Of a stretch of DNA of 64,000 bases, positions 20,520-48,222 are shown piece by piece; the stretch's first letter is position 1, and the number at the start of each line of letters is the position of its first letter. Position numbers and translations under genes: made by a program. Source of the DNA: Amycolatopsis pithecellobii (GTDB taxonomy: Bacteria; Actinomycetota; Actinomycetes; Mycobacteriales; Pseudonocardiaceae); NCBI RefSeq assembly GCF_009707865.1, contig NZ_WMBA01000007.1, positions 62,001-126,000 of the forward strand, given 5' to 3'. The notes under the pieces were generated by a model, which searched no databases, was not told the DNA's origin, and saw nothing but the letters and a program-made list of their open reading frames with translations.

Positions 20520-20531
20520 ACGGAGATAGCC

Positions 20532-22025: not shown

Positions 22026-22043
22026 AGGTGTGGAGGGGCCACC

Positions 22044-23111: not shown

Positions 23112-23477
23112 CTGGCTGACGGGGGGCGCAGCCGACGAACATCTGCGGCCCGCCAGGTGGTCGCCCTCCGCTACTGATCGGCATCATTTGGCGGTTACAG
23201 GTACGGGTGCGAGGTTGACAAAATCGAGGGAAGGGTCGGCCAGTCGCCACTCGACTTCAGTTGCCCGTCAGAAAGCGTGCTCATGCCATACAGTCGAACG
23301 CCGTGTTCGTTCTCGCTGCCCCGAAGCGGCCAGTCCGTTCACCGTGCCCGACGGGTCCGTGGCTCAGCTTCGCTGCTCCGAACACGCTGCCCTCATGGCG
23401 CCTCGTCGACGGCTGCGTCGCCGGCATAACAGTAATTCGAGCAGCACCCCCGAAGACCGTTAGAGAGGCGTTCGTCA
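23112..23477 (+). other. Intergenic region before the SDR/BVMO operon
   Basis: No family-like protein is encoded. A weak copy of the GntR-type site, GAGGTTGACAAA (8 of 12), lies at 23211-23222 and includes TTGACA. A plus-strand frame of 180 codons starting inside the PucR gene has no recognisable motif. TAGAGAGG is found 10-17 bases before the SDR start. Confidence 0.4.
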
Positions 23478-24497
23478 ATGAGTCTCGAACCGTCATCGCC
23501 CGCCAAGCCGGGGCACGCGCTGATCACCGGCACCGGGTTACTAGGTGCGCACGTCGGTCGATGGCTGCTCGACGACGGCTGGGAAGTGACCCTGCTGGAC
23601 CGTGCACCTGACCACAGCTACCTCCAACAAATCCTCGGACGGTCCTATCTCGATCGTGGAGCGACCGTCTTAACCGGCGACCTTCTCGACCCGCATCTGA
23701 CGAGCAAAACCCTGAAAGGGGTGCAGCCTGACGTCGTCATCCACACAGCCGCTCTCATCGCGTTGGAAGCACAACGGAACCTGGGTTTGACACTCGACGT
23801 CAACGTGGTTGCGCCGGCTCGGTTAGCGACCTGGGCAGCGGAGAACGGCGCGCACCGGTTCGTAGCAACCAGCACTTGGGGCGTTTACGACCAGGCGTAC
23901 CAGCAGCCGTTGACGGAAGACTCGCCGGTGGGCCCCGTACCGCAGAGCCACTACGCGGCATCGAAGGTCGCGATGGAATACACCCTCCACAGTTTGGCAA
24001 CGACTGGCGCCCTGTCAGTGGTCGTTGCTCGCCCTTCAACTCTGTACGGGTACGCGCCAGCTGACGCCGGAGGTCCCGGCACTGCGGTGATCGAACGGCT
24101 CGTTCGGGCCGCCCTGCGTGGCGAACCAGTCACAGTTTCGAACGCTGCGGTGACCGGCGGCGAGTTGGTGTATGCCGTGGATGCAGCGAAGGTTCTCGCC
24201 TCGGCCGCGTCCTCGACGCTCCCAGACCCGTTCACCATCGTTCTCGCAAGTTCCGGTGAGCTGACCGATGCCTACGAACTAGCCGATGCGATCCGCACCC
24301 ACGTGCCTTCGGCGCAGGTTGATGTTGACCGGAGTCCTGCGACCGGTCCCCGGCCGCCGCGTTACGCGTTCGCTACCGACGCATCGAAAACACGCATCCT
24401 GCTCGGCTTGGACCCGCCGTCGCTGCTGAAGGACGGAATTGGTCGATACATCGAGGCCATGCGGGGATACGAAGCGCAGGAGGAACACACACGATGA
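23478..24497 (+). CDS. NAD(P)-dependent epimerase/dehydratase (extended SDR)
   Basis: 339 residues. It has the glycine-rich GHALITGTGLLGAHVGRWLL, a variant of GxxGxxG, then GDLLDPHLTS, VIHTAALIALEAQ, VATSTWGVYDQ, and the catalytic pair in SHYAASKVAMEY (YxxxK). This fits extended SDRs that oxidise or reduce hydroxyl groups on sugars or aryl side chains. It overlaps the BVMO gene by 4 bases and so heads an SDR, BVMO, esterase operon. In that context it may form the ketone that the BVMO oxidises; this is inferred. Confidence 0.85.
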   Translation: MSLEPSSPAKPGHALITGTGLLGAHVGRWLLDDGWEVTLLDRAPDHSYLQQILGRSYLDRGATVLTGDLLDPHLTSKTLKGVQPDVVIHTAALIALEAQRNLGLTLDVNVVAPARLATWAAENGAHRFVATSTWGVYDQAYQQPLTEDSPVGPVPQSHYAASKVAMEYTLHSLATTGALSVVVARPSTLYGYAPADAGGPGTAVIERLVRAALRGEPVTVSNAAVTGGELVYAVDAAKVLASAASSTLPDPFTIVLASSGELTDAYELADAIRTHVPSAQVDVDRSPATGPRPPRYAFATDASKTRILLGLDPPSLLKDGIGRYIEAMRGYEAQEEHTR

Positions 24498-26008
24498 CCG
24501 GCGAGACTATCGAGACGGTAATCATCGGTGCAGGCTTCAGCGGCCTGTCCGCCGCGCACGAGCTGTTGACGTCGGGGCGCAACGACTTCGTACTGCTCGA
24601 GCAAGCCAGCGAGGTCGGCGGGGTCTGGCGAGACAACCAGTACCCGAACGCCGCATGCGATGTGCCAGCCCAGCTGTACAGCCTCTCATTCGCCCCCAAC
24701 GCCGAATGGTCCTGCAACTACGCGCCTTGGCACGAGATACTCGCCTACATGAACAAGGTTGTCGACGACCTTGGCATTCGCGACCGAATCCGGTTCGAAA
24801 CCGAACTCGTAGCCGCGACCTGGGAACACAATTCAGGCGAATGGCTACTGACCCTCGCCGACGCGTCCACCATCCGGTGCCGCTTCCTTATCTCAGCAGT
24901 CGGGGCGTTGAGCCGACCGTTGATTCCTGACCTCCCAGGGATGGATGAGTTCCGTGGGGAAATCCTGCATACCGCCCACTGGCACCCTGACGTTCGACTC
25001 GAGGGCAAGCGAGTCGCGGTCATCGGCGCCGGGGCCAGCGCGGTACAGGTTGTCCCGTACGCCGTCGACACGGCGGCCGAGGTGTTGTCGGTCGTTCGCA
25101 CCCCCCCATACGTGATGCCGAAACCCGAGGAACATTACGACGAGGCCGCGAAGGCCAGGTTCCGTGCCAAACCTGAAGAGATGGACCGGAAACGCAAGGA
25201 ACACTACGACTTCTTCACTGTGTCGACGGACGCTCAGGCCGCGATGGACACCACCTTCTTAGACAAGGTGGAAGCCGATTGGCGCGACCATCTTGAGTCG
25301 GCCGTTGCCGACCCCGACCTTCGACGTTTACTGACACCGAACTACAGATGGGGCTGTCGTCGCCCCGTCGTTTCCAACGTGTACTACCCGGCTCTGGCTG
25401 ACCCCAAGACGACTGTCTGGGACGTTGGGATTGTTGCTTTCACACCAACCGGTGTTGTGGGGTCCGACGGACGCGAATGGGACGCCGACGTAGTCATCCT
25501 CGCAACCGGGTTCCGCGGCACCGAACTGTTCGAAGGCGTCGACTACACCGGCATCGGCGGCAGACAGCTCAGAAAAGAATGGGCGAGCGAACCGCAGGCT
25601 TGGAAAGGCACCCTGGTGTACGGGTTCCCCAACCTCTTCCTCATCACCGGCCCGAACACCCAAGCGTCCGGTTCGATCATTGGCATCATCGAGGCGCAGA
25701 CCCGGATGGTCGTCGCCCTCATCGACCTCGCCGATCGAGCCGGCGCGAGCAGCGTCGCCGTCACCGAAGACGCGCAGCGTCGCTACAACGAATGGCTGGA
25801 CGCCGTCATGGCTGGAACGGTGTGGCAGATCGGCGGTTGCGCAAGCTGGTACCGCGTTGGCGGCACCGGCAAGGTCGTCACCAAGTACCCAGGATCGTTG
25901 GCAAGCTTCGAGGCCGTCACATCTGACCTGGACCCCGACGACCTGGAGCTCACCGTCCTCGACCGGGCGGCAGCTGACACGGAGGACCGGTCGCGTGCAA
26001 CGACATGA
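24494..26008 (+). CDS. FAD-dependent Baeyer-Villiger-type monooxygenase
   Basis: 504 residues with two Rossmann motifs: TVIIGAGFSGLSAAHELL (FAD) and RVAVIGAGASAVQVVPY (NADPH). Between them lies FRGEILHTAHWHPD, which fits the BVMO fingerprint FxGxxxHxxxW with His replacing the usual final Pro/Asp. Other blocks: GGVWRDNQYPNAACDVPA, VVILATGFRGTELFEG and FLITGPNTQASGS. It should insert oxygen next to a ketone to give an ester. The overlapping downstream alpha/beta hydrolase could hydrolyse that ester, a classical pair. An aryl-ketone substrate is inferred from the surrounding island. Confidence 0.87.
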   Translation: MTGETIETVIIGAGFSGLSAAHELLTSGRNDFVLLEQASEVGGVWRDNQYPNAACDVPAQLYSLSFAPNAEWSCNYAPWHEILAYMNKVVDDLGIRDRIRFETELVAATWEHNSGEWLLTLADASTIRCRFLISAVGALSRPLIPDLPGMDEFRGEILHTAHWHPDVRLEGKRVAVIGAGASAVQVVPYAVDTAAEVLSVVRTPPYVMPKPEEHYDEAAKARFRAKPEEMDRKRKEHYDFFTVSTDAQAAMDTTFLDKVEADWRDHLESAVADPDLRRLLTPNYRWGCRRPVVSNVYYPALADPKTTVWDVGIVAFTPTGVVGSDGREWDADVVILATGFRGTELFEGVDYTGIGGRQLRKEWASEPQAWKGTLVYGFPNLFLITGPNTQASGSIIGIIEAQTRMVVALIDLADRAGASSVAVTEDAQRRYNEWLDAVMAGTVWQIGGCASWYRVGGTGKVVTKYPGSLASFEAVTSDLDPDDLELTVLDRAAADTEDRSRATT

Positions 26009-27059
26009 TGACTCCCTCCACGACAGCGCCGAGTCCGGGCTGAGACGACGCCGACCGCCACTCGACCCCGAACTCGGGGCAGTGTTGGCGTCGTTCCCTG
26101 CGGAGGCGTTGGCGTCGGTCAGCGCAAACAACATCAGTTCGTTGCGCCGCGTCCTTTCGACCCAGACCGCGGACCTGCGTCAGATCGAACAACTCGACCT
26201 CATTGTCGACGAGTACCACGCTCAGGCACCTGACGGCGCGCAGGTGCCGCTGACCGTTTTGCGTCCCCGGTACAGTGCGGGCCCGGTGCCCTGCATTTAC
26301 TACATCCATGGCGGGGGCATGATCGCCGGCAACCGGTTACTCCGCGTCGACAAGCTGGCCGAACTCGTCCTGGAGTTAGGTGTCGCCGTTGTGAGCGTCG
26401 AGTACCGGTTGGCGCCCGAGCATCCGTACCCAGCCGGTTTGCACGATTGTTACGCAGGTCTGGAATGGATCTCCTCGCACGCGTGTGAGAACGGATTCGA
26501 TCCCGACTACCTACTGGTACACGGCGTGAGCGCAGGCGGGGGACTGGCCGCAGGGATTGCGCTGATGGCTCGGGACTTCGGCGGCCCCCAGATCACGCAC
26601 CTCATCCTGCAGGCTCCGATGCTCGATGACCGTAACCAGACCCCCTCGAGCAGCGAGCTGGAAGGTGATGCACCGTGGGACCGGGTCTCCAATGTCACCG
26701 GCTGGTCAGCGCTCCTCGGGGACGGAGCCGGCGGGCCTGACACGTCGCCCTATGCGGCGCCGTCCAGAGCCGAGAATCTCGACCACATGCCCTCCACATA
26801 CATAGACGTTGGGCAAGTCGAGACTTTTCGTGACGAAGCCATCGAGTTCGCGACCCGGCTGGCCCGCGAAGGGGGACTTGTCGAGTTTCACCTGTGGCCC
26901 GGCGCTTGGCACGGTTTCGACTACACCGCTCCGCACGCTGCAGTATCGCAAGTGTCCAACCAGACGCGAAGCGCTTTCATAGACCGAGCCGTAGCGTCGT
27001 CGCTTAACGTCCGACAACGGCCGCGGACGGCAGGTCCAGCATCGGATAAACGGTTCTAG
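25995..27059 (+). CDS. Alpha/beta hydrolase of the hormone-sensitive-lipase group
   Basis: 354 residues from the GTG at 25995, which has GGAGG 9 bases upstream and lies inside the end of the BVMO gene. HSL-family features: CIYYIHGGGMIAGN (oxyanion HGGG), VSVEYRLAPEHPYPAGLHDC, the nucleophile elbow VHGVSAGGGLAAG, an acid in YIDVGQVETFRDEA, and His in GAWHGFDYT. It hydrolyses short-chain esters. Translational coupling to the BVMO supports hydrolysis of the BVMO ester product. Its 3' end overlaps that of the LigJ-like gene on the opposite strand by 56 bases. Confidence 0.88.
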   Translation: MQRHDDSLHDSAESGLRRRRPPLDPELGAVLASFPAEALASVSANNISSLRRVLSTQTADLRQIEQLDLIVDEYHAQAPDGAQVPLTVLRPRYSAGPVPCIYYIHGGGMIAGNRLLRVDKLAELVLELGVAVVSVEYRLAPEHPYPAGLHDCYAGLEWISSHACENGFDPDYLLVHGVSAGGGLAAGIALMARDFGGPQITHLILQAPMLDDRNQTPSSSELEGDAPWDRVSNVTGWSALLGDGAGGPDTSPYAAPSRAENLDHMPSTYIDVGQVETFRDEAIEFATRLAREGGLVEFHLWPGAWHGFDYTAPHAAVSQVSNQTRSAFIDRAVASSLNVRQRPRTAGPASDKRF

Positions 27060-28026
27060 CGTTCCGTTCGTAGATTGCGTTTCGCTGCGCTGCGGTGAGG
27101 TTCGCCGCCTCCACGTAACGTTTGGTGTCGTCAAAATAGTAACCCGTCTCCGGATCAAGACCCCGGACAGCGCCCACCATTTCAGACCCGAAAAGCAGGT
27201 TTTCGGTCCCAACCGCCGAAACCAGTAGATCTACCCCCGGCTGGTGATACACGCACGTGTCGAAGAAAACGTTGTGCATCAAATGCTCCTGCAACGTCGG
27301 CTTTCCCAACATATCCGCAAGACCGCGAAATCGGCCCCAATGGTATGGAACCGCTCCACCTCCGTGCGGGATGATCAAACGCAACTGTGGGAATCGAGCG
27401 AATACGTCTCCCTGCAGCAGCTGCATGAAGGCGGTCGTGTCGGCATTCAAGTAGTGGGCGCCGGTCGCGTGGAACGCACGGTTGTCGCTCGCAGACACGT
27501 GCACCATCGCAGGAACTTGAAGCTCGCTCATCGCCTCATACAAGGGAAACCAGTACGGGTCGTGAAGCGGCGGGCTCGTCCAATGACCGCCACTTGGATC
27601 CGGATTGAGGTTCGCTCCCACGAAACTCAACTGCTCCACACACCGCCGGAGCTCCTCGACTGCCGCGTCCACCGGCTCGCCGGCAGCCTGCGGCAGCTGA
27701 CACACAGGCGCGAACTCGCGGGGAAACAGCCCCACGACCCTCGCAATGAGATCGTTGTTCGCATGCGCCCATGCGACGCTCGTCTGGAGATCGCCGAGGT
27801 GATGCCCCATGGCCGACGCGCGCGGAGAGAACAGCGTCAGGTCCGTGCCGCGTTCCCTCATCAACCTGAGTTGGTTGTGTTCCAAGGCCTCGCGAAGTTC
27901 GTCGTCGCTGATCCGCGGGTACGCGGGCGGACAGGACCCGTTGGAGTGAGCGTCCAACTGTTCGGTGCGCCAAACGGAATGCGCCGTCGGAACGGTCGTG
28001 AAGTGGCCGTGACAGTCGATGATCAT
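27004..28026 (-). CDS. ligJ: 4-oxalomesaconate hydratase (LigJ-type amidohydrolase)
   Basis: 340 residues from the ATG at 28026 with AGGAGCA upstream (a GTG immediately before is also possible). This is an amidohydrolase-superfamily protein: IIDCHGHFTT with the HxH metal site, VHVSASDNRAFH, IIPHGGGAVPYHWGRFRG, FFDTCVYHQPGVDLL and the LigJ-specific FGSEMVGAVRGLDPETGYY. LigJ hydrates 4-oxalomesaconate to 4-carboxy-4-hydroxy-2-oxoadipate in gallate and protocatechuate 4,5-cleavage routes. Length equals characterised LigJ. It is transcribed away from the GntR gene, and the rest of the pathway is on the other side. The perfect operator at 28208-28219 lies in the shared promoter region. Confidence 0.88.
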   Translation of the reverse strand: MIIDCHGHFTTVPTAHSVWRTEQLDAHSNGSCPPAYPRISDDELREALEHNQLRLMRERGTDLTLFSPRASAMGHHLGDLQTSVAWAHANNDLIARVVGLFPREFAPVCQLPQAAGEPVDAAVEELRRCVEQLSFVGANLNPDPSGGHWTSPPLHDPYWFPLYEAMSELQVPAMVHVSASDNRAFHATGAHYLNADTTAFMQLLQGDVFARFPQLRLIIPHGGGAVPYHWGRFRGLADMLGKPTLQEHLMHNVFFDTCVYHQPGVDLLVSAVGTENLLFGSEMVGAVRGLDPETGYYFDDTKRYVEAANLTAAQRNAIYERNARTVYPMLDLPSAAVVGR

Positions 28027-28207
28027 CACTTGCTCCTGGTCGCGTTAGCTGAATCGTGGCGCTTCGAAGGTGGCGCGGCGAGGAAACGTACGGTCAGGCA
28101 ACGGCGGGTTCGCGCCCCAGCCCCGATGCCGTGAAGGATGGGTCGGCCGCGGTTGACGCCGGCCGGATTGGTGAGCCGCACCCGTTAACCTGCCAAACGA
28201 CGACAAC

Positions 28208-28219
28208 ATTGTCAACAAT
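28208..28219. promoter_or_regulatory. GntR-type operator, site B (perfect palindrome)
   Basis: ATTGTCAACAAT is an exact ATTGT-N2-ACAAT palindrome between the divergent ligJ and gntR starts. On the minus strand it contains TTGACA, a good -35 for ligJ, with TTAACG about 18 bases further. It therefore probably lets the GntR protein control ligJ. Confidence 0.7.
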
Positions 28220-28272
28220 TCTATCCAGTTGCTGTCCGTTGAGCTACCAGGGCGTGCACGGCATCCAGCGCG

Positions 28273-28284
28273 ATCGTTGACAAT
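28273..28284. promoter_or_regulatory. GntR-type operator, site C (gntR promoter)
   Basis: ATCGTTGACAAT matches the palindrome at 11 of 12 positions and ends 42 bases before the gntR ATG. Its centre is 65 bases from that of site B, so one regulator could bind both sites and repress both directions, including its own gene. Confidence 0.65.
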
Positions 28285-28326
28285 ATGGGTTGGTACTACG
28301 CAAGCAATCTGACGCAGGAGAAATCG

Positions 28327-28983
28327 ATGACGCAGAGGCTGCTCCCGGGGGCTGCAGGCAAGCAACGTGCCGCGGACGGGTTACGGACAAGCATCCTGAA
28401 CGGCGACATGGTCCCCGGCCAGCGGCTGGTAGAGGCAGACCTCGTCGAACTCTACGCAGTGACGCGATCAAGCGTGCGCGACGCGATCGACGACCTCATC
28501 TCGGAAGGCCTCGTGGAGCGCGTTGTCAACAAGGGCGCGCGGGTACGAGTCGTCTCACTCGACGAAGCGATCTCGATACTCGAATGCCGTGGCGTACTTG
28601 AGGGTCTTATCGCCGCACGAGCCGCCCAGCGCATCACCAAGAAGGGTGCTGCCGAGCTCCGGGCCATCGGGCGGCGGATGGAGCGGGCAGTAGCAGACGG
28701 CGAACTGCTGACCTACTCGCGACTGAACTCTCAACTGCACGCGCGCATCGCCGAGCTGTCCGGACAACAGACCGCGTCGAACCTCATCCACCGACTCAGG
28801 TCCCAGATCGTTCGTCACCAGTTCCAGCTGTCACTGCGTCCCGGACGGCCTCCGGTGTCCCTCAAACAGCATCTTGAAATCATCGATGCCGTCGCATCCT
28901 CGGATCCCGTCCGCGCGGAACGCGCCGCTCGGGCGCACCTGGAGAGCGTCATCGACGCGCTCGGCACCGCCCCCTCCGTCTGA
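28327..28983 (+). CDS. GntR-family regulator (FCD) of the methoxyaromatic island
   Basis: 218 residues from the ATG at 28327, preceded by AGGAG. N-terminal winged helix: ADGLRTSILNGDMVPGQRLV, then YAVTRSSVRDAIDDLISEGL and the wing VERVVNKGARVRVVS. The FCD ligand-binding domain includes RLNSQLHARIAELSGQQ with metal-binding residues and a final RAARAHLESVIDAL. Such proteins are usually repressors released by an aromatic or dicarboxylic acid. Operator-like palindromes flank its gene and precede ligM and the ADH operon. It is therefore the best candidate master regulator of the island, perhaps sensing syringate, vanillate or gallate; the ligand is inferred. Confidence 0.9.
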   Translation: MTQRLLPGAAGKQRAADGLRTSILNGDMVPGQRLVEADLVELYAVTRSSVRDAIDDLISEGLVERVVNKGARVRVVSLDEAISILECRGVLEGLIAARAAQRITKKGAAELRAIGRRMERAVADGELLTYSRLNSQLHARIAELSGQQTASNLIHRLRSQIVRHQFQLSLRPGRPPVSLKQHLEIIDAVASSDPVRAERAARAHLESVIDALGTAPSV

Positions 28984-29041
28984 CCCACGACTTCGCCGGG
29001 GCGGAGGGCGGAGCACAGCGGTACCCCCTTTCGGCTACGAG

Positions 29042-29075
29042 ATTGTTGACGATTTGGTTAGCACGCGCCTACAGT
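29042..29075 (+). promoter_or_regulatory. ligM operon promoter with GntR-type operator, site D
   Basis: ATTGTTGACGAT (29042-29053) matches the GntR palindrome at 11 of 12 positions. TTGACG at 29046-29051 forms a -35, and TACAGT at 29070-29075, 18 bases later, a plausible -10. The operator overlaps the -35, so binding should block transcription of the ligM-to-folD operon. Confidence 0.65.
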
Positions 29076-29137
29076 CACACGAAACACCACTCGACGACGG
29101 GCCGCGAATCTCAAGCCCCGGAAGAAGGGTCCTCACG

Positions 29138-30505
29138 ATGAGCTCCGAGAAGCTGCAGACCGCCGTCGAGCGCGCTGGGGGCGCAGTTCCGTTGCTGCGC
29201 AACTCACCCATCCGGCCGCACACGTTCCCGGTGGCAGCCGAGTTCAGCAACTGGCGGACCGAACAATCGGCATGGCGCGACAGCTGCGCCCTGCTGGACC
29301 AGTCCCACCACATGACGGACTTGTTCATCTCGGGACCCGGCGCGTTGCGTCTGCTACGCGAACACGGCGTGAACTCGTTCGCGAACTTCGCCCCCGGCAA
29401 GGCCAAGCAGTACGTGGCAGTCAACCCCGACGGCTACTTCATCGGAGACGCGGTCCTTTTCTACCTCGATGACGAACTGTTCGACATCGTTGGACACCCC
29501 ATGGTCCTCAACTGGCTCCAGTACAACGCCGAAGTCGGCCAGTACGACGTCACGCTCGAACGGGACGAGAACTCCTACGACCGGGTCTCAGGGCCGCCCA
29601 AGCAGTACCGCTACGAGCTGCAAGGCCCCAACGCTCTCAAGGTCCTGGAATCGGCCACGAACGCCGCAGTTCCGGACGTCAAGTTCTTCAACATGGCCGA
29701 CTTCGAGATCGCCGGTCACCGAGTCCGCGGTCTTCGGCACGGCATGGCAGGCCAACCCGGTTTCGAACTGTTCGGGCCGTGGGCCGAGGGCGATGACGTT
29801 CTAGCAGCCCTCCTGGCCGCAGGCCGGGACTTCGACCTCGTGCGCGCTGGCGCGAAGGCCTACTCCACGGCAAACCTGGAATCCGCATGGATCCCGTCGC
29901 CGATGCCGGCCATCTTCGCAGACAACCTGCGCGACTACCGCGAATGGCTGGATGTGAAAGAGATGGGTTCGCTCGGAGGCAGTATGGACTCGACCGACAT
30001 CGCCGACTACTACGTCACGCCATATGACATCGGTTACGGCCGGATCGTCGTTTTCGACCACGAGTTCGTCGGCCGGGAAGCGCTGGAAGCGCACGCCAGC
30101 GATGCTCACCGAACCAAAGTGACACTGGTGTGGAACAGTGACGACGTTGCCGCAGCGATAGGCACACTGTTCGAGCCCGGCACCCCCGCGAAGTACATCG
30201 AGATGCCGAAGGCCAGATACGCGCTCTTCCACATCGACCAGGTACTCAACGATGGTGAGCTTATCGGGCTTTCGATGGACGCAGGCTACCTGGCCAACGA
30301 GCACCTGATGGCCTCACTCGCAACCCTTGACTCCACGTACGCCGAACCCGGAACCGAACTGACGCTCCTGTGGGGGGAGAAGGAACGCAGCGCCAAACCG
30401 CAGGTCGAAGCACACCGCCAGATTCCGATTCGCGTCACGGTCGCGCCGGCCCCCTACGTGCAGTTCGCCCGCAGCAGCTACCGCTCAGCCCGATTGACCC
30501 GATAG
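29138..30505 (+). CDS. ligM: Tetrahydrofolate-dependent aryl O-demethylase (LigM/DesA-like)
   Basis: 455 residues, close in length to Sphingobium LigM (about 470) and related to the GcvT aminomethyltransferase fold. Conserved blocks: HHMTDLFISGPGALRLL, FAPGKAKQYVAVNPDGYFIG, YELQGPNALKVLE, LRHGMAGQPGFELFGPW, KAYSTANLESAWIPSPMPA, SLGGSMDSTDIADYYVTPYD and FDHEFVGREALE. The enzyme moves the methyl group of vanillate, 3-O-methylgallate or syringate to tetrahydrofolate, giving 5-methyl-THF and a phenol. Directly followed (2 bases) by MTHFR, then PurU and FolD, which recycle the methyl-THF. The LigM versus DesA substrate range cannot be read from sequence alone. Confidence 0.88.
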   Translation: MSSEKLQTAVERAGGAVPLLRNSPIRPHTFPVAAEFSNWRTEQSAWRDSCALLDQSHHMTDLFISGPGALRLLREHGVNSFANFAPGKAKQYVAVNPDGYFIGDAVLFYLDDELFDIVGHPMVLNWLQYNAEVGQYDVTLERDENSYDRVSGPPKQYRYELQGPNALKVLESATNAAVPDVKFFNMADFEIAGHRVRGLRHGMAGQPGFELFGPWAEGDDVLAALLAAGRDFDLVRAGAKAYSTANLESAWIPSPMPAIFADNLRDYREWLDVKEMGSLGGSMDSTDIADYYVTPYDIGYGRIVVFDHEFVGREALEAHASDAHRTKVTLVWNSDDVAAAIGTLFEPGTPAKYIEMPKARYALFHIDQVLNDGELIGLSMDAGYLANEHLMASLATLDSTYAEPGTELTLLWGEKERSAKPQVEAHRQIPIRVTVAPAPYVQFARSSYRSARLTR

Positions 30506-30507
30506 GC

Positions 30508-31419
30508 ATGAAGACCGAGCGAGCACCACGAAACCCTGCCCTGGCGGCACGCCTCGGCTCGTTACTCGGCAACATCAGCTACGAGGTCATGCCGTTCAAG
30601 CGCACCGAAGACGAAGTCGTCGCGCACGTGCCGTTGGACATTCCAGTGACCATCACCGTCACTGAAGCAAAGGGCATTTCGGCCACAATCGACCTGGCCG
30701 AACGCCTCGCCGCGCATGGCTACCACGTCAACCCGCACCTGCCGGCCCGCCAGATCGGCAGCGAGGCGGAGCTGGTCGACATTGTCAACCGTATGCTCGC
30801 AAACGGAATCGACCGCGCGTTTATCGTGGCCGGTGACGCCAAAGAGCCGGCTGGCGACTATGACAGCGCCTTAAAGCTGATCCAAGCACTCGACCACATG
30901 GGCCGACCTCTGTCAGACATAGGTGTAAGCGGCTACCCCGAAGGCCACGCGCACATATCCGATGCCGACCTCGACACGGCGCTCCGAACAAAAACCCCTT
31001 ACGCGGCACGCATAGTCACACAGATGTGTTTCGACGCGACCACCATCGCGCGCTGGGCAGACGCAACCGCTCAACGCGGCATCACGGTGCCGGTGATAGT
31101 CGGCCTTCCCGGACCCGTGAGCCGGCAGAAACTCGTTCGCATCGCAGGCGGTATAGGCCTCGGCCAATCTGCGCGGTTCCTGCAGAAACAACAAGGACTT
31201 CTCCGCAAATTCCTGACACCCGGCGGTTTCACCCCAGATGGCCTGCTACGCAAGCTCGCAGCGCTGCCGACGGCGTCGGCAGGAAACATTCAAGGGCTGC
31301 GCATATTCACGTTCAACGAAATCGCTGGAACAGAAGAATGGCGGCGAAACCTAGCCGCGTCGTTACCCGGCGCGCTTGGCGAACCCTGTCCACCCGCCCA
31401 GCGGGTCAGCGCCCAGTAG
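30508..31419 (+). CDS. metF: Methylenetetrahydrofolate reductase family protein
   Basis: 303 residues with the MTHFR barrel. The N-terminal catalytic Glu is in NISYEVMPFKRTEDE, followed by VTITVTEAKGIS, FIVAGDAKEPAGDYDSAL, IGVSGYPEGHAHISD, VTQMCFDATTIARW and VPVIVGLPGPVSRQKLV. In this setting it should run oxidatively, turning 5-methyl-THF made by the O-demethylase into 5,10-methylene-THF with FAD. The same ligM-metF pairing is known in Sphingobium. It sits 2 bases after ligM, so production is probably coupled. A general methionine-biosynthesis role is less likely given the context. Confidence 0.88.
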   Translation: MKTERAPRNPALAARLGSLLGNISYEVMPFKRTEDEVVAHVPLDIPVTITVTEAKGISATIDLAERLAAHGYHVNPHLPARQIGSEAELVDIVNRMLANGIDRAFIVAGDAKEPAGDYDSALKLIQALDHMGRPLSDIGVSGYPEGHAHISDADLDTALRTKTPYAARIVTQMCFDATTIARWADATAQRGITVPVIVGLPGPVSRQKLVRIAGGIGLGQSARFLQKQQGLLRKFLTPGGFTPDGLLRKLAALPTASAGNIQGLRIFTFNEIAGTEEWRRNLAASLPGALGEPCPPAQRVSAQ

Positions 31420-31448
31420 CCGCCGTCACCTACACGAATCGGAATCCA

Positions 31449-32324
31449 ATGGCTCTCAATTCAGCCAGCACCGCCGACAACGGCCGGCTACTAATCCGCG
31501 GCGCCGACCGGCCGGGCATCGTCGCGTGCGTGTCGAGCCTTCTGGCCGACTTCGGGGCGAACGTCGTCTCACTCGACCAGTATTCGTCCGACCCTGAGGG
31601 TGGCCGTTTCTTTCAGCGCACCGAAATCCACATGCCGAACTTTCCAGCGCGTATCGACGAACTCCGCAAAGCGCTGACGACCGCGTTGACCGACGGACTC
31701 GATCTCGAGTGGGACCTCGTGGAAAGCAAGAAAGTCAAGCGCGTCGCCCTGTTCGTGTCCAAATCAGACCACTGCCTGTTGGACCTTCTATGGCGGCACC
31801 GACGTGGTGAACTCAACATGAACGTCAGCATGGTCATATCCAACCACCCGGACCTCAGCGATGACGTACGCGCGTTCGGCATTCCCTACCTGCATGTCCC
31901 GGTCAACAGGGATGACAAGGCCGCAGCCGAGGAACGGCACCTGGAACTGCTTCAAGGTAACGTCGACCTTGTTGTTCTCGCGCGGTACATGCAAATTATT
32001 TCGGGCGACTTCCTACGCCGAGTAGGCGCCCCGGTGATTAACATTCATCATTCGTTCCTGCCAGCTTTCGTCGGCGCTGGGCCGTACCAGAAAGCGCGCG
32101 ATCGTGGCGTCAAGCTGATCGGTGCGACCGCGCACTACGTGACCGAAGACCTCGACGAAGGCCCCATCATCGAACAGGACGTGGTGCGCGTGACACACGA
32201 AATGAGCACGGCCGATCTGGCGCGCCGCGGCGCGGACGTTGAACGGCAGGTCTTAGCCCGCGCCGTCGCGTGGCATTGCGACGACCGAGTTCTACGCGAC
32301 GGCAACACCACCATCGTGTTCTGA
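31449..32324 (+). CDS. purU: Formyltetrahydrofolate deformylase
   Basis: 291 residues from the ATG at 31449. The N-terminal ACT domain reads LLIRGADRPGIVACVSSLLA. The hydrolase domain has VALFVSKSDHCLLDLLWR, MNVSMVISNHPDL, IPYLHVPVN, VVLARYMQIISGDFL, the active-site NIHHSFLPAFVGAGPY, and GATAHYVTEDLDEGPIIEQD. It hydrolyses 10-formyl-THF to formate and THF. Within this operon it closes the folate loop after FolD, freeing THF for the O-demethylase. Sphingobium uses formyl-THF ligase (LigH) for this step, so PurU is a different, irreversible solution. Confidence 0.92.
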   Translation: MALNSASTADNGRLLIRGADRPGIVACVSSLLADFGANVVSLDQYSSDPEGGRFFQRTEIHMPNFPARIDELRKALTTALTDGLDLEWDLVESKKVKRVALFVSKSDHCLLDLLWRHRRGELNMNVSMVISNHPDLSDDVRAFGIPYLHVPVNRDDKAAAEERHLELLQGNVDLVVLARYMQIISGDFLRRVGAPVINIHHSFLPAFVGAGPYQKARDRGVKLIGATAHYVTEDLDEGPIIEQDVVRVTHEMSTADLARRGADVERQVLARAVAWHCDDRVLRDGNTTIVF

Positions 32325-32350
32325 CGCGCCTGCCGAGAGGAGCCATCCAC

Positions 32351-33049
32351 GTGAGGAATGTCGTATACACACGCCCTCCCCGGGCATCCAGCGAGGCTGC
32401 TGCCGAGTTAGGCGCGTTCGGTACCGCAACCGTTCACGAAGCGCAACACCGTGCCGGTTACCTCGGGGCGTCAATCAGGCCGGCTTGGCCTGGAGCTCGT
32501 GTAGGCGGCACCGCCGTTACCGCACTCTGCTGGCCAGGTGACAACACGATGATCCATGTTGCCGTCGAGCAATGCCAGGCCGGCGACATCCTCGTCGTCG
32601 CGACGACATCACCATGCCAAGACGGTCTGTTCGGCGAGCTGTTCGCCACCGCGCTCCAACATCGCGGCGTCATTGGAGCGGTACTCAGCTGCGGTGTCCG
32701 CGACGTGGCAGAGCTACACGCCATGCGCTTTCCGGTGTGGTCACAATACGTCAGCGCGCAAGGGACCGTGAAACAGACCCTCGGGTCCGTCAATGCACCA
32801 GTCACCGTCGGAGGCGTCTTGATCAACCCGGGCGACGTGCTCGTTGCCGATGACGACGGAGCGGTTTGTGTCCCTCGTGATCAGGTCGAGGACACCCGTA
32901 CTTCATCGCGGGCGCGAGAAAAGAAGGAAGCGCAGACCCGCGCACGGTTGCGAACAGGAGAGGTCGGCCTGGACATCTACGGAATGCGCACGCGGCTGAC
33001 TGAACTCGGCCTCGAGTACTGCTCCCACCCCGAATCCGTCGACCCGTGA
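32351..33049 (+). CDS. ligK: 4-carboxy-4-hydroxy-2-oxoadipate aldolase (LigK/RraA family)
   Basis: 232 residues from the GTG at 32351, which has AGGAG 8 bases upstream. RraA-fold blocks: AELGAFGTATVHEA, RPAWPGARVGGTAVTALCWP, DNTMIHVAVEQCQAGDILVV, GVIGAVLSCGVRDVAELH, VNAPVTVGGVLINPGDVLVA with DDDGAVCVPR, and the C-terminal LDIYGMRTRLTELGLEY typical of CHA aldolases. It splits CHA into pyruvate and oxaloacetate and often also decarboxylates oxaloacetate, using Mg. Its 3' end overlaps the start of the OMA tautomerase gene. Together with ligJ and the tautomerase it completes the lower gallate pathway. Confidence 0.9.
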   Translation: MRNVVYTRPPRASSEAAAELGAFGTATVHEAQHRAGYLGASIRPAWPGARVGGTAVTALCWPGDNTMIHVAVEQCQAGDILVVATTSPCQDGLFGELFATALQHRGVIGAVLSCGVRDVAELHAMRFPVWSQYVSAQGTVKQTLGSVNAPVTVGGVLINPGDVLVADDDGAVCVPRDQVEDTRTSSRAREKKEAQTRARLRTGEVGLDIYGMRTRLTELGLEYCSHPESVDP

Positions 33050-34149
33050 CCGCCGACAAGAGCGTGAGCGGCATCCGCTGCATGTGGATGCGGGGTGGCA
33101 CCTCCAAGGCTGCCGTTTTCCTGGCCGACGACCTGCCGACGAGCACCGTCGAACGCGACGAAATGCTCCTGAGCATCATGGGCTCACCGGACCCGCGCCA
33201 GATCGACGGAATCGGCGGCGCAACGTCACTGACAAGCAAAGTCGCCGTGGTCTCGAAGTCGACAGCACCCGGTATCGACGTCGACTACCTGTTCCTGCAG
33301 GTGGCAGTAAACGAGAACGTTGTCTCCGACCGACAGAACTGCGGCAACATCCTGGCCGCGATAGGCCCGTTTGCTGTGGAGCGCGGGCTTGTGCAGGCCA
33401 CCGGACCGGAGGCCGCAGTGCGTATTCGGATGGTCAACTCGAACACCATCGCTACAGCCAGATTCCCTCTCCGGGACGGGATGCTGCGTAACGACGGTGA
33501 GGTGCACATTGCCGGCGTACCAGGTAAGGCAGCAGGAGTGCGCCTCTACTTCGAGGACACCGAAGGTTCAGCCACCGGTGCCCTGTTTCCCACGGGCCGA
33601 GTTATCGACACGATCGACGGTATCGACGTCACCTGCGTCGACAACGGTATGCCGGTAGTACTTGTAGCAGCAACCGACCTGGGCCTGTCAGGTCAGGAAA
33701 CACCGCAAGAGCTGTCCGATAACGAGCGTGTTACCGCCCGGGTCGACGCGCTCCGCCAGAAAGCCGGGCATCTGATGGGACTCGGCGCGACCAGCAACAG
33801 TTCCGTCCCCAAGACCGTCGCCGTCAGCCCACCCGTTCACGGCGGTGCCGTGGCCACCAGGTCGTTCATCCCGACCCGACCACATGAGGCGATCGGAGTC
33901 TTCGCCGCCGTCAGCGTCATCACCGCGCTGCTCACGCCCGGCGCTGTGGCGCACGAGCTGCTGTCCCGGCATCCGGCCGGCACGACCAGCTTCGACGTCG
34001 AACACCCGACAGGGTTCCTTCGTGTCGACGCGGTTATGGAACCCGCCCAAGGGGCGGTCGGCGGATTACGAGTGACCCGGTCCGGGGTCGTCAGGACTGC
34101 TCGCAAGCTCATGGACGGCACCGTTTATCCGCGTCACCGCCTGCACTGA
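33046..34149 (+). CDS. galD: 4-oxalomesaconate tautomerase (GalD/LigU-type, PrpF family)
   Basis: 367 residues beginning at a GTG overlapping the ligK stop (GTGA). PrpF-family signatures: IRCMWMRGGTSKAAVFLADD, IDGIGGATSLTSKVAVV, VNENVVSDRQNCGNILAAIG with the active-site Cys region, and TVAVSPPVHGG near the C-terminus. PrpF/GalD proteins shift double bonds. GalD and LigU interconvert keto/enol isomers of 4-oxalomesaconate to give the form used by the hydratase. The neighbouring ligK and ligJ make this role much more likely than methylaconitate isomerisation. Confidence 0.87.
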   Translation: MTADKSVSGIRCMWMRGGTSKAAVFLADDLPTSTVERDEMLLSIMGSPDPRQIDGIGGATSLTSKVAVVSKSTAPGIDVDYLFLQVAVNENVVSDRQNCGNILAAIGPFAVERGLVQATGPEAAVRIRMVNSNTIATARFPLRDGMLRNDGEVHIAGVPGKAAGVRLYFEDTEGSATGALFPTGRVIDTIDGIDVTCVDNGMPVVLVAATDLGLSGQETPQELSDNERVTARVDALRQKAGHLMGLGATSNSSVPKTVAVSPPVHGGAVATRSFIPTRPHEAIGVFAAVSVITALLTPGAVAHELLSRHPAGTTSFDVEHPTGFLRVDAVMEPAQGAVGGLRVTRSGVVRTARKLMDGTVYPRHRLH

Positions 34150-34183
34150 CCACGATCTGTCCGCGCGAGAGAAAGAACCTGGC

Positions 34184-35137
34184 ATGCCACTCGGCCACGA
34201 GGTCGCCCACCTCTCCCACATCGAGCTATTGACACCTGTTCTCGATAAAAGCGTCGCCTTCTTTGTCGACTATCTCGGAATGACCGTTGTCGGCGGCGAC
34301 GACAACAAGGTGTATGTGCGGGCGTTTGACGATTACGAACATCACACACTCACACTCGTGGCGCATTCGTCGTCCGGCATCGGTCGGACGAACCTGCGAG
34401 CGAGTAGCCCGGATGCGCTGGCCCGTCGCGTGAAGGCGCTCGAAGGCGCAGGACGAAGCAGCGGCTGGCAGGACGGGGACCCTGGATACGGACCCACGTT
34501 CGTCTTCCAGGACCCGGACGGACACGAGCTCGGCCTCTACTGGGAGTCGGAACGTTACAACCCGACCAAGGATCTGCGGCCCGCCCTGAAGAACCAAGCG
34601 CAACGATACCCAGGTCGCGGGGTCAGCGTCCGACGCCTGGACCACGTCAACTACCTCGGCGCGGACGTCGAAGCGAATCGCGACTTCTTGCGCGACCAGC
34701 TCGGCGCGCTTGTCACTGAACAGATCGTCCTCGACGACGGCTCGATAGCCGGCACCTGGACCACCTTCACGAACAAGGGCTACGACGCCGTTTACACACG
34801 TGACCGCACCGGCACCACCGGCCGACTGCATCACATCGCGTTCGCTACCGACACTCGCGAGGACATTCTGCGGGCAGCCGACATTGCGCTCGAACAAGGC
34901 GTTTTCATTGAGTCCGGGCCACACAAGCACGCTATCCAACAAACGTTCTTCCTGTACGTGTACGAGCCCGGCGGCAACCGTATCGAACTGTGCAACGCCG
35001 GCGCGCGGCTGGTATTGGCCCCCGATTGGGAGACCATTAATTGGACAGAGGCCGAACGGGCGAAAGGTCAGGCGTGGGGAATGAAAACCATTGAGTCTTT
35101 CCACACCCACGGCACCCCCCCGGTCGGGAACACGTAA
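34184..35137 (+). CDS. Type I (VOC) extradiol ring-cleavage dioxygenase
   Basis: 317 residues in two VOC modules. The catalytic C-terminal half aligns with catechol 2,3-dioxygenase: metal ligands H154 (RRLDHVNYLG), H217 (GRLHHIAF) and E268 (GGNRIELCNAG), plus H249 (GPHKHA) and Y260 (LYVYEPGG). The acid/base His of C23O (H199 in XylE, AHDVAF) is Tyr here (GYDAVY). Known gallate dioxygenases are the unrelated type II enzymes. Because the lower pathway in this operon starts at 4-oxalomesaconate, gallate or 3-O-methylgallate is the expected substrate; this is an inference. The gene sits between the OMA tautomerase and folD. Confidence 0.82.
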   Translation: MPLGHEVAHLSHIELLTPVLDKSVAFFVDYLGMTVVGGDDNKVYVRAFDDYEHHTLTLVAHSSSGIGRTNLRASSPDALARRVKALEGAGRSSGWQDGDPGYGPTFVFQDPDGHELGLYWESERYNPTKDLRPALKNQAQRYPGRGVSVRRLDHVNYLGADVEANRDFLRDQLGALVTEQIVLDDGSIAGTWTTFTNKGYDAVYTRDRTGTTGRLHHIAFATDTREDILRAADIALEQGVFIESGPHKHAIQQTFFLYVYEPGGNRIELCNAGARLVLAPDWETINWTEAERAKGQAWGMKTIESFHTHGTPPVGNT

Positions 35138-35139
35138 CA

Positions 35140-36039
35140 ATGTCCGCCAAGATAATCGACGGCCGGGCAATCTCAGCCGAGATTCGACAGGGTCTGGTGC
35201 GGCGAGTCCAATCATTGCATGCCGAATCATTGCTGACGCCCGGGCTCGCCGTAGTGCTCGTCGGTAATAACCCTGCGTCGAAGGTTTACGTCGCGAATAA
35301 AAAGAGGGCCTGCGCTCAGGTCGGAGTTACATCGTTCAGCGAGAACTTCCCGGCAGAAATCACGACGGACGAACTCATCCGCCATATACGCAGCCTGAAC
35401 GCGCGAGCAGACGTTCACGGAGTGCTGGTGCAGCTACCGCTGCCAGGCCACATCGACATGCGGCAGGTGCTTGAAGCCATCGACGTGGCGAAAGACGTCG
35501 ACGGGTTTCACCTTTACAACGTCGGTGGGCTTGTCGTTGGACAGACGGTCTTCGCCCCGTGCACTCCATACGGGGTCGTCGAGCTTCTCGCCTATGAAGG
35601 CATCACAGTTGAAGGCCGCAACGTCGTCGTTGTCGGCGCGAGCAACATCGTCGGCAAGCCGCTCGGACTCATGCTCATGCAGGGTGACGCCACTGTGTCC
35701 ATCTGTCACGCCAAAACGCGGGACCTAGCCCAGTTCACGATCCTGGCCGACATACTAGTTGTCGCCGCCGGCGTTCCAGGCCTGATACGCGGCGAAATGG
35801 TCCGCCACGGCGCCGTTGTCATTGACGTCGGCATCAACAGAATGCCGGATAACAGCATCACCGGTGACGTCGACTTCGAAGCCGTCCGCAGGAAAGCTTC
35901 GTACATCACGCCGGTACCCGGCGGCGTCGGACCAATGACCGTCACGATGCTGCTCGAAAACACAATTTCAGCGGCCGAGAGGTTCGCGCTCAAAACCCGC
36001 CTCACTGGAACCGCCGACGAAACGCGACTAGTGCCGTGA
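35140..36039 (+). CDS. folD: Methylenetetrahydrofolate dehydrogenase/cyclohydrolase
   Basis: 299 residues with all FolD landmarks: PGLAVVLVGNNPASKVYVAN followed by KKRACAQVG with the catalytic Lys, VHGVLVQLPLPGHID, KDVDGFHLYNVGGLVVG, FAPCTPYGVVELL, VVGASNIVGKPLGLMLM for NADP binding, and TPVPGGVGPMTVTMLLENT. It oxidises 5,10-methylene-THF to methenyl-THF and hydrolyses it to 10-formyl-THF, which PurU then deformylates. It starts 2 bases after the dioxygenase stop, so a C1 enzyme is embedded in the ring-cleavage operon. Probably an island-dedicated copy in addition to a housekeeping folD elsewhere. Confidence 0.93.
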   Translation: MSAKIIDGRAISAEIRQGLVRRVQSLHAESLLTPGLAVVLVGNNPASKVYVANKKRACAQVGVTSFSENFPAEITTDELIRHIRSLNARADVHGVLVQLPLPGHIDMRQVLEAIDVAKDVDGFHLYNVGGLVVGQTVFAPCTPYGVVELLAYEGITVEGRNVVVVGASNIVGKPLGLMLMQGDATVSICHAKTRDLAQFTILADILVVAAGVPGLIRGEMVRHGAVVIDVGINRMPDNSITGDVDFEAVRRKASYITPVPGGVGPMTVTMLLENTISAAERFALKTRLTGTADETRLVP

Positions 36040-36211: not shown

Positions 36212-38329
36212 ATGAAGTTTGTGATCGGAATCGACGTCGGTGGCACCTTCACCGACGCCGTGGTTGCAGACACAGACGGCAACATCATCGGCGCGAAAAC
36301 GCCTTCCACCCCCGACGACTACTCCCGGGGGGTCCTCACAGCCGTATCCGACCTCGCAGCCGTCCTCGAAATGGACGAACGCGAAATGCTCAGCAACACC
36401 GCCTACATCGCGCACGGCACCACAGCAAGTATCAACGCCCTCGTCACCGGAAACGTTGAACCCGTCGCCTTCATCACGACTCGCGGACACGGCGACTCAA
36501 TCTCGATCATGAACGTCGAAGGCCGGTACCTCGGCTTGTCCGCGATGGCCCTGCAAGACACGCTCACCACCCGCAAACCCGCACCGCTCGTACCCAAGTC
36601 CCGCATTTTCGAAATCACCGAACGTATCGATCAGGCCGGCGACGTGGTTGTGCCACTGAACGAGGACGAGGTCCGTGATGCAGTACGCGGCCTGCAAGAA
36701 ATGGGTGTCCAAGCCGTCGCGGTGTCACTGCTCTGGTCATTCCAGAACCCCCAGCACGAACACCGCGTCCGAGACATCATCGCCGAGATGGCTCCGGAAA
36801 CGTTCGTCGCGTTGTCCAGCGACATTTCACCGCGCATCCGCGAGTTCGCACGCAGCTCGACAACGATCATGAGCACGGCGCTCGGGCCGCCGTTGCGTCG
36901 CTACCTCCAGCCACTGGACCGGGAGCTGCACGAACGCGGACTCGCAGGGCCTTTACTGATCATGCAGAGCTCCGGCGGCACGATCGCAGCAGACGAGGCA
37001 CCCGCCTCAGCGATCACCACAGTAGGTTCCGTACTGAGCGGCGGTGTAGTCGGCGCCACCCGCCTCGCGCAACAGCTCGGCCACAGGAACGTCGTAACCG
37101 CCGACGTGGGCGGAACGACGTTCCTGGTCGGAATGGTCGTGGATGGCGAACCGGTACGCGCCGCCTCAACAATCATCAACCAGCACTCCATCAACGTTCC
37201 CACCATCAAGGTCGACGCCATCGGGTCCGGCGGCGGAGCAATCGCCTGGATTGATGCGGGCGGGAACCTGCGCGTCGGCCCGCAAAGCGCAGCAGCCGTT
37301 CCAGGGCCTGCTGCCTACGACGCCGGCGGCACCGACCCGACCGTCACCGACGCCAACATCGTGCTCGGCATCATCGACCCGAACTTCTTCCTCGGCGGCA
37401 AACGCCAACTGCAAGTCGAACTTGCAGAACGCGCGCTCCTGGAAAAGGTCGGCAAGCCGCTCGGGCTCGACGCCGAGCAGGCCGCAGCAGCGGTCTACGA
37501 AGTGCAGAACGCGCAGACTGCCGACCTTGCACGCAAGGTCGTAGTCGAAGCCGGTCACGACCCGCGTGACTTCGTCATGTACGCCTTCGGCGGATCCGGA
37601 CCCATCCATGCAGCCGCGATCGCCACAGAACTCGGCATCAGCGAACTCGTGGTGCCCTTAGGAGCCGCAGCGTCCGGGTTCTCCGCTTTCGGTCTTGCCG
37701 CATCCGACGTGACGGTGACAGCAGAACTCTCCGATCCCGGCACGTTCCCACTGAACCCGGCCAACGTACAAGCGAACTATGACACGGCCGCCGCCCGAGT
37801 GACTGGCGCCCTGGAAAGGCAGGGCGTCCAGTACCAAACTGTTGACATCGAGCGCGAGTTTGATGCCCGCTACGTCTCGCAGATGTTCGAGGTCACCGTC
37901 AACGCGCCAGCTGGGGACGTGGACGAAGACACCATCAAGGTCATGGCGGAAAACTTCGCCTCGCGGTACGCGGAGTTGTACGGCGAAGGAGCGGCCGCCG
38001 CCGGCGCCGGATACCAAGCGATCACCTACCGGGTCCGAGGTGTCGGCCGGCTCCCATTTCGCCCAGTCCTGCCCCCGCACGCCAAGGCCGACACCACAGA
38101 CGCGTCGGGCGCGATCAAAACGCGAAGGCGTGTCTTCTTGGACGTAACTCGCGGTTTCGAGCCAACACCGATCTACGACTATGACCGGCTGAAAGCAGGA
38201 CACCAGTTCGACGGTCCGGCCGTGATTGAGGCTGTAACCACGACGGTCACCATCCCGGCCGAGCGGACGGCGCGGGTCGACGACTACGGCAACATCCGTG
38301 TGAGCTTGACCGAGGAGAATGCACAGTGA
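36212..38329 (+). CDS. Hydantoinase/oxoprolinase A-type subunit (ketone carboxylase-like)
   Basis: 705 residues from the ATG at 36212 with GGAG 6 bases upstream. The ASKHA ATPase-like start is FVIGIDVGGTFTDAVVADTD. Further blocks: YIAHGTTASINALVTGNV, LSSDISPRIREFARSSTTIM, LLIMQSSGGTIAADEAP, VTADVGGTTFLVGMVVDGE, IDAGGNLRVGPQSAAAVPGP and VMYAFGGSGPIHAAAIATEL. HyuA-type proteins use ATP to activate a carbonyl or lactam; relatives are beta subunits of acetone and acetophenone carboxylases. Its stop overlaps the HyuB-like start by 4 bases. In this island carboxylation of an aryl ketone is plausible, while hydantoin hydrolysis remains an alternative. Confidence 0.85.
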   Translation: MKFVIGIDVGGTFTDAVVADTDGNIIGAKTPSTPDDYSRGVLTAVSDLAAVLEMDEREMLSNTAYIAHGTTASINALVTGNVEPVAFITTRGHGDSISIMNVEGRYLGLSAMALQDTLTTRKPAPLVPKSRIFEITERIDQAGDVVVPLNEDEVRDAVRGLQEMGVQAVAVSLLWSFQNPQHEHRVRDIIAEMAPETFVALSSDISPRIREFARSSTTIMSTALGPPLRRYLQPLDRELHERGLAGPLLIMQSSGGTIAADEAPASAITTVGSVLSGGVVGATRLAQQLGHRNVVTADVGGTTFLVGMVVDGEPVRAASTIINQHSINVPTIKVDAIGSGGGAIAWIDAGGNLRVGPQSAAAVPGPAAYDAGGTDPTVTDANIVLGIIDPNFFLGGKRQLQVELAERALLEKVGKPLGLDAEQAAAAVYEVQNAQTADLARKVVVEAGHDPRDFVMYAFGGSGPIHAAAIATELGISELVVPLGAAASGFSAFGLAASDVTVTAELSDPGTFPLNPANVQANYDTAAARVTGALERQGVQYQTVDIEREFDARYVSQMFEVTVNAPAGDVDEDTIKVMAENFASRYAELYGEGAAAAGAGYQAITYRVRGVGRLPFRPVLPPHAKADTTDASGAIKTRRRVFLDVTRGFEPTPIYDYDRLKAGHQFDGPAVIEAVTTTVTIPAERTARVDDYGNIRVSLTEENAQ

Positions 38330-40590: not shown

Positions 40591-40687
40591 ACCATTCGTC
40601 GGCCCACCTGCGCCGGCCACGCACACGAAAGTCGTTACCTCGCCCGTCATCGGACGGTGAGGCCATGCCATAAAAAGTGGAGACGGT

Positions 40688-47639: not shown

Positions 47640-47642
47640 CGA

Positions 47643-48206: not shown

Positions 48207-48222
48207 GATCAGGTCCCTCTTC

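Follow-up and report, generated by a model that had tools for sequence, protein, structure and literature searches.

A predicted type I gallate dioxygenase in a candidate operon for O-methylated gallates of Amycolatopsis pithecellobii

Which enzyme opens the aromatic ring, and of which substrate, in an actinomycete gene block that otherwise resembles the gallate pathways of proteobacteria? The question is raised by positions 27004-36039 of a 64,000-nucleotide stretch of Amycolatopsis pithecellobii DNA (contig NZ_WMBA01000007.1, positions 62,001 to 126,000; here denoted the window). A reading of the sequence alone had placed in this block an O-demethylase, a 4-oxalomesaconate (OMA) tautomerase, a LigJ hydratase, a LigK aldolase and an extradiol dioxygenase. 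Profile and structure matches locate all five activities there, and the gene families support the proposed conversion of an O-methylated gallate, by way of OMA, into pyruvate and oxaloacetate. From gene families, operon layout, synteny, an operator motif, iron-ligand positions and a predicted fold, we consider it quite probable that the block serves as a regulon for the catabolism of O-methylated gallates, with syringate and/or 3-O-methylgallate as the likeliest substrates; the reactions and substrates given below are predicted from these observations.

Layout, lower pathway and operator of the block

The block consists of ligJ on the minus strand, a divergent GntR/FCD gene and a seven-gene plus-strand operon, in which overlaps or gaps of at most ~35 nucleotides join the O-demethylase, MetF, PurU, LigK, OMA tautomerase, VOC dioxygenase and FolD genes in that order. 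Its features are as follows.

27004-28029, minus: LigJ-type hydratase of the OMA pathway, amidohydrolase fold (phmmer; Pfam Amidohydro_2)
28208-28219, no strand given: operator candidate ATTGTCAACAAT in the ligJ/gntR divergent region (pattern ATYGTYRACRAT)
28273-28284, no strand given: operator candidate ATCGTTGACAAT in the same region (same pattern)
28327-28983, plus: GntR/FCD regulator, predicted operator binder (Pfam GntR and FCD)
29042-29053, no strand given: operator candidate ATTGTTGACGAT 5' of the operon (same pattern), overlapping a promoter-like match at 29046
29138-30505, plus: tetrahydrofolate (THF)-dependent aryl O-demethylase, third clade beside DesA and LigM (scores, tree, residues)
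30508-31419, plus: divergent MetF-like methylenetetrahydrofolate reductase, predicted to oxidise methyl-THF (Pfam MTHFR)
31449-32324, plus: PurU formyltetrahydrofolate deformylase (TIGR00655)
32351-33049, plus: LigK/GalC-type 4-carboxy-4-hydroxy-2-oxoadipate aldolase (NF006731; PDB 3noj)
33046-34149, plus: GalD/LigU-type OMA tautomerase (NF033377)
34184-35137, plus: type I (VOC) extradiol dioxygenase, predicted gallate dioxygenase (Pfam, NCBIfam, residues, tree, synteny)
35140-36039, plus: FolD methylene-THF dehydrogenase/cyclohydrolase (NF008058)

In the pathway we propose, the GcvT-fold demethylase would transfer the aryl methyl group to THF, and MetF (running oxidatively), FolD and PurU would carry it to formate, regenerating THF. 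The type I dioxygenase would then cut gallate at C4-C5, giving OMA, which GalD would tautomerise, LigJ hydrate and LigK split into pyruvate and oxaloacetate, while a GntR/FCD repressor would act at ATYGTYRACRAT sites over ligJ, its own gene and the operon. Because C5 of gallate bears a hydroxyl, this cut would yield OMA directly and require neither LigC nor LigI; a protocatechuate route would need both steps. A type II enzyme that forms OMA from gallate is reported in PMC8431788.

The best PDB matches of LigJ are crystallised OMA hydratases (502.6 bits by phmmer), and the next family, a biphenyl meta-cleavage-product hydrolase that we take to be LigY, reaches 203. LigK passes NF006731 (311.7 bits, cut-off 179) but not TIGR02798 (287.8, cut-off 304.5), and matches PDB 3noj at 244.4 bits. 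The possibility that these two proteins are unrelated amidohydrolases and RraA regulators can be set aside, as the crystallised hydratase and aldolase match better. The tautomerase passes NF033377 (470.6, cut-off 440) and is the only match in its own genome at E <= 1e-30, so that flux needing this tautomerase should pass through the window GalD. Judged by these comparisons, the assignment of the lower pathway is solid.

The pattern ATYGTYRACRAT occurs three times in the window against 0.06 expected, each time in one of the cluster's two promoter regions. The motif was picked from the window and then tested on other loci. In 105 related loci (2.02 Mb, counted apart from L055-L058 and own-genome loci; L073 and L103 are one A. 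sacchari region, so at least one stretch is doubled), 85 of 112 matches lie 5' of pathway genes, against 7.7 expected, and are spread over 73 loci; over the same set, none of three control palindromes matched more than once. A looser pattern, TYGTYRACRA, was noisy (99 near starts, 31.9 expected), and stricter forms were counted instead. A scan for promoter-like matches gave two against 1.6 by chance, no excess. These data indicate that a conserved operator ties together ligJ, gntR and the operon; the GntR protein is predicted to act on the sites. The whole genome holds 12 sites: the three described here, two on contig C103 and seven elsewhere. The C103 pair (L229), exact ATTGTCAACAAT copies at 9146 and 14037, flanks a GntR-like regulator, as read by eye, and an aldehyde dehydrogenase with 31% identity to the aldehyde dehydrogenase of the window.

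The ring-cleavage enzyme and its relatives

Pfam finds two glyoxalase/dioxygenase stretches and no other domain type in the dioxygenase, and the same scan detects no LigB-superfamily domain of the kind present in DesB and GalA. The closest NCBIfam models are catechol 2,3-dioxygenase and HpaD, both below cut-off, and a structure search returned AphC and C23O as closest. The protein has a predicted VOC fold with 2-His-1-carboxylate iron ligands, whose three positions are invariant across 63 aligned rows. By sequence and predicted fold the enzyme is type I (VOC, AphC-like) and not type II of the LigB superfamily, and the sequence-only reading was mistaken in assigning it to the family known from Sphingobium.

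The clade is set apart by its residues. All 58 close rows, that of the window among them, have tyrosine at position 200, and all five outgroup rows have histidine there; we take this position to correspond to the second-sphere His200 of HPCD, presumably the catalytic histidine. The same 58 rows also differ from AphC at positions 198, 247 and 307. K198, H247, H307 and H309 are candidate contacts for the substrate carboxylate. AphC of Rhodococcus RHA1 (7q2a; near-identical 3lm4) shares the fold, the iron-ligand positions and 36-38% identity with the window enzyme, and has L198, H200, D247, T252 and F307 (3lm4) where the window has K198, Y200, H247, Q252 and H307. Ten relatives from a plasmid collection all carry the window's set (Lys198, Tyr200, His247, Gln252, His307). 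The T. thermophilus HB8 enzyme, located near dmpG and acetaldehyde dehydrogenase genes, has Leu198, His200, Gly247, Ser252 and Phe307. PDB 9wgj, a 51% identical entry named 'catechol 1,2-dioxygenase', keeps Lys198, Tyr200 and His307 and lacks His247 and Gln252; it did not come up among the structure matches listed (library to April 2026), and its plasmid matches are all below 60% identity.

A tree placed the window enzyme in a 31-row clade (100/99) together with LigJ-type gallate clusters, Nocardia gallate clusters and Amycolatopsis demethylase clusters; a tannase-like gene lies near four of these rows. The tool gave a long-branch warning for this tree, the window row being among those flagged.

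Neighbourhoods were counted for the best 80 of at least 588 confirmed dioxygenase relatives, using named loci and ignoring tblastn matches that covered 60% of the query or less. In 70 of these loci the dioxygenase has both LigK and GalD in its vicinity, which we regard as more than chance. GntR homologues are present in 67 loci and a PIG-L GalB in 49, many of them actinomycete. A LigB-type open reading frame (ORF) is found in three; the profile used for LigB derives from nine translated matches, of which L019 and L020 are apparently out of frame, and it still recovered the three positive-control loci. The arrangement extends beyond actinomycetes: PIG-L, dioxygenase, LigK, GalD and tannase genes are grouped in Agrobacterium tumefaciens (walnut), the first four of these in Rhizobium Q54, A. 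vitis, Thioclava and Roseibium, and PIG-L and LigK accompany the dioxygenase in Thermus oshimai. In Methylobacterium, LigJ- and LigK-like genes lie within 8 kb of it.

The clade is most readily accounted for as a gallate dioxygenase family that has gone unrecognised, the conversion of gallate to OMA being predicted from synteny. Specifically, we hold it reasonably likely that this VOC clade, whose members genome annotation now calls catechol 2,3-dioxygenase or 'VOC family protein', is a type I gallate dioxygenase unrelated to GalA and DesB, with tyrosine replacing the catalytic histidine, and that it is joined here to a third-clade demethylase in a self-contained syringyl operon. The clade probably extends over hundreds of genomes of Actinomycetota, Pseudomonadota and Deinococcota.

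The O-demethylase and its folate arm

The demethylase aligns with LigM over residues 6-450 (434.6 bits) and reaches only 46.1 bits with the best GcvT, which places it outside the sarcosine/dimethylglycine GcvT clade. It scores 565 on the DesA model NF047633 (cut-off 800) and 491.5 on the LigM model NF047885 (cut-off 580), on which two actinomycete LigMs score 885.6 and 899.8. In a tree of 35 rows, 34 of them different, it belongs to a clade of 13 rows (99/95) that is separate from the DesA group (100/100; three rows, two of which passed the DesA cut-off, the third being unscored) and the LigM group (100/100). Tyr247, which we take to be the catalytic tyrosine of LigM, is retained in all ten third-clade rows checked, the window included (Y247). 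In the same rows Arg122 is replaced by His (8/10), Tyr31 by Phe (9/10) and Arg245 by Lys (8/10); roles for Tyr31 and Arg122 in LigM are likewise assumed by us. These three residues are kept in 3/3 DesA-group and 7/7 LigM rows; the window has H122/F31/K245 against their R122/Y31/R245. Full-length likeness to DesA and LigM together with Tyr247 marks the protein as a THF-dependent aryl O-demethylase in the broad sense. By scores, tree and residues it is neither LigM nor DesA and belongs to a third clade: the LigM-like character claimed earlier holds over the full length, and membership of the LigM family does not. A single-sequence structure prediction was of low confidence (predicted local distance difference test, pLDDT, 32.6) and was not used.

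Third-clade members adjoin a true LigM in R. opacus, on A. sacchari contig C55 and in two family f16 genomes, the layout expected of a syringate demethylation step. No LigM above cut-off was found in the window genome (five matches, 420-491 bits), which leaves a second demethylation without an assigned enzyme; none was found in the A. acidicola genome (G397) either. With one demethylase in the block and no such LigM, a pathway complete from syringate requires a double-acting enzyme or a second route. On sequence grounds syringate is the likeliest substrate of the demethylase, with one or two demethylations. Elsewhere in this genome, three regions (L059, L060 and L061, on G000:C85, C132 and C73) contain four more THF O-demethylase paralogues, each region with MetF and PurU matches; the THF O-demethylase set of this genome is unusually rich.

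The claim of a complete syringate pathway thus stands in part. The block has a single demethylase, and it also carries the folate genes MetF, PurU and FolD, which had gone unlisted. MetF passes Pfam MTHFR (51 bits, cut-off 24) and remains below TIGR00676 (60.3, cut-off 293.7), as a divergent protein; PurU passes TIGR00655 (378.9, cut-off 285.95) and FolD passes NF008058 (371.7, cut-off 355). We predict that these genes, lying beside the demethylase, convert methyl-THF to methylene-THF, formyl-THF and formate, presumably in the oxidative direction. The same set adjoins third-clade demethylases in A. sacchari, A. tucumanensis, A. acidicola and R. opacus, and a DesA-group demethylase in Sphingobium.

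The cluster on R. opacus pRop44186_a shares a 69% identical demethylase with MetF, PurU, FolD and LigK nearby, and differs in having LigAB and a hydrolase replacing the VOC enzyme, a true LigM and a PIG-L hydratase. It also contains annotated pabB, folP, fdhD and an FdhF/YdeP-type gene (L096), which suggests that O-demethylation is served there by its own folate supply and formate oxidation. In the A. sacchari demethylase cluster (L103, ~10950-13130), 3' of the dioxygenase, we read by eye a dihydropteroate-synthase-like ORF and an MHS/MFS-type transporter.

Substrate, alternatives and place among known systems

Several observations weigh against gallate as the ring-cleavage substrate or against a full syringate pathway in the block. 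To the low curated scores, the exchanged pocket residues and the missing second demethylase described above are added the tyrosine at the usual catalytic histidine position of the dioxygenase and its score on the catechol 2,3-dioxygenase model TIGR03211 (305.2), just below the cut-off of 320.2. No annotated GalD or LigK lies within 7-8 kb of the Roseomonas and Pantoea At-9b relatives, and a Bradyrhizobium relative has a PIG-L hydratase only. Six of the 80 loci have no GalD, LigK or hydratase: in three the stored stretch begins at the dioxygenase, so that one flank is missing, and three are named Amycolatopsis demethylase clusters, an arrangement that also fits cleavage of 3-O-methylgallate.

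The alternative that survives best, possible though not favoured by us, is that 3-O-methylgallate is opened by LigAB and a hydrolase encoded on contig C56, leaving free gallate alone to the window dioxygenase, with GalD, LigJ and LigK common to both branches. C56 carries LigA and LigB together with the hydrolase, which is 82% identical to its R. opacus counterpart, and no GalD other than that of the window was found in the genome; a parallel 3-O-methylgallate branch is thus plausible, and from its fold class and position the C56 hydrolase may act like MgaC. However, the 20 kb around this module hold no demethylase, MetF or PurU match, C56 has no exact operator match, and dioxygenase and demethylase share one operon in the window. 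A further region of the genome, away from the block, has LigB-, LigJ- and LigK-like genes. The sequence-only outline of the pathway is largely right, with three amendments: the demethylase clade, the dioxygenase type and the LigAB-plus-hydrolase module.

We think it unlikely that the window dioxygenase itself cuts 3-O-methylgallate. On that reading, modelled on the Mga route of Pseudomonas NGC7, syringate would be demethylated once and a methylesterase would convert the ring-opened methyl ester to the precursor of OMA. Cleavage of 3-O-methylgallate gives a methyl ester that requires a hydrolase, according to PMC8091115 and PMC12314914. The lone demethylase, the absence of a LigM above cut-off from the genome and the Amycolatopsis clusters that pair demethylase and dioxygenase without GalD or LigK would fit this route, as would the third-clade demethylases of R. 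opacus and A. sacchari that sit with LigAB and an alpha/beta hydrolase. An HSL-type esterase is also encoded upstream, at 25995-27059, but it is not part of the operon, is preceded by no operator match and has a homologue in only 2 of 80 loci. The signature residues of the dioxygenase, moreover, are the same as in tannase-linked gallate clusters, within one supported clade.

Somewhat less probable still is a demethylase for another methoxy-arene (e.g. 4-O-methylgallate or a di- or trimethoxybenzoate) attached to a plain gallate pathway. The third clade and its altered pocket residues are compatible with this, but clade members adjoin true LigM in the R. opacus, A. sacchari C55 and f16 genomes, if not in A. 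acidicola or the window genome. That an ordinary catechol or alkylcatechol 2,3-dioxygenase is here by chance is very improbable: its top curated model and closest structures would suit such an enzyme, but the block has no semialdehyde-processing gene, GalD and LigK accompany most of the relatives, and every close row departs from AphC at the four positions.

Gallate cleavage by the type I enzyme, in a regulon for O-methylated gallates, is thus the reading we prefer, and it differs from each known system in a particular way. Sphingobium SYK-6 (DesA, LigM, DesB, LigU, LigJ, LigK) has in common THF demethylation, OMA, a LigJ-type hydratase, a LigK-type aldolase and a GalD/LigU-type tautomerase; the block differs by its third-clade demethylase, its type I rather than type II ring-opener and its GntR/FCD regulator. 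PurU in the C1 arm is presumably a further difference from SYK-6, but is not unique to the block, as the Sphingobium TomTYG72 demethylase locus has it too. The gal pathway of P. putida KT2440 (GalA, GalB, GalC, GalD) likewise leads from gallate through OMA to pyruvate and oxaloacetate; we take its GalA to be of the LigB superfamily and its GalB to be PIG-L, whereas the block has a VOC ring-opener and a LigJ hydratase. According to PMC12314914, the Pseudomonas NGC7 route (VanA1B1, MgaAB, MgaC, MgaD, then GalDBC) shares the path from syringate to OMA and a GntR-type repressor, and has as its own a Rieske demethylase releasing formaldehyde, opening of 3-O-methylgallate by MgaAB and the need for a hydrolase. 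That source also reports predicted full sets in Actinomycetes. The pathway is predicted here in an actinomycete, as the sequence-only reading held, but its novelty outside the sphingomonads is weak. Syringate catabolism outside the sphingomonads is not new; the type I gallate dioxygenase predicted here is, and the open-licence literature searched, largely at title and abstract level, yielded no report of a VOC gallate dioxygenase.

The genes around the block appear to be separate. HyuA/HyuB and a ribose-type ABC transporter (36212-44518) were rejected as pathway members: they start ~160-170 nucleotides past folD with no operator match in front, and HyuA or HyuB matches number 0 among the best 80 named loci, the pair being present in one divergent locus (L056). 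The nearest curated models of HyuA/HyuB, caprolactamase and acetophenone carboxylase, are far under cut-off. Genes at 18679-27059 were also rejected, each being matched in at most four of the 80 loci; they encode an alcohol dehydrogenase, a class II aldolase (82.6 bits to a 3,4-dihydroxyphthalate decarboxylase model, cut-off 200), an aldehyde dehydrogenase, a PucR-like regulator, an epimerase, a flavin monooxygenase and the HSL-type esterase, and read as a separate catabolic cluster. Class II lanthipeptide-type genes occupy 45441-51636, with a C39-peptidase ABC transporter at 45441-47639 alongside a LanM-like synthetase gene (48223-51636, minus strand; DUF4135 and LANC_like domains), and a xanthine-dehydrogenase-type, molybdopterin-binding gene lies at 56495-58888.

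If the assignment is true, gallate and tannin carbon in many actinomycetes and some plant-associated proteobacteria would enter metabolism through an enzyme annotated as a catechol dioxygenase or VOC protein, and gallate and syringate use would have been overlooked in these genomes. A non-homologous enzyme would have taken over a central step, that of ring cleavage, and the family would show by nature's own experiment whether tyrosine can stand in for the acid-base histidine of type I extradiol enzymes. For the use of lignin, the block would offer a compact operon that takes methoxylated gallates to pyruvate and oxaloacetate and is predicted not to release free formaldehyde.

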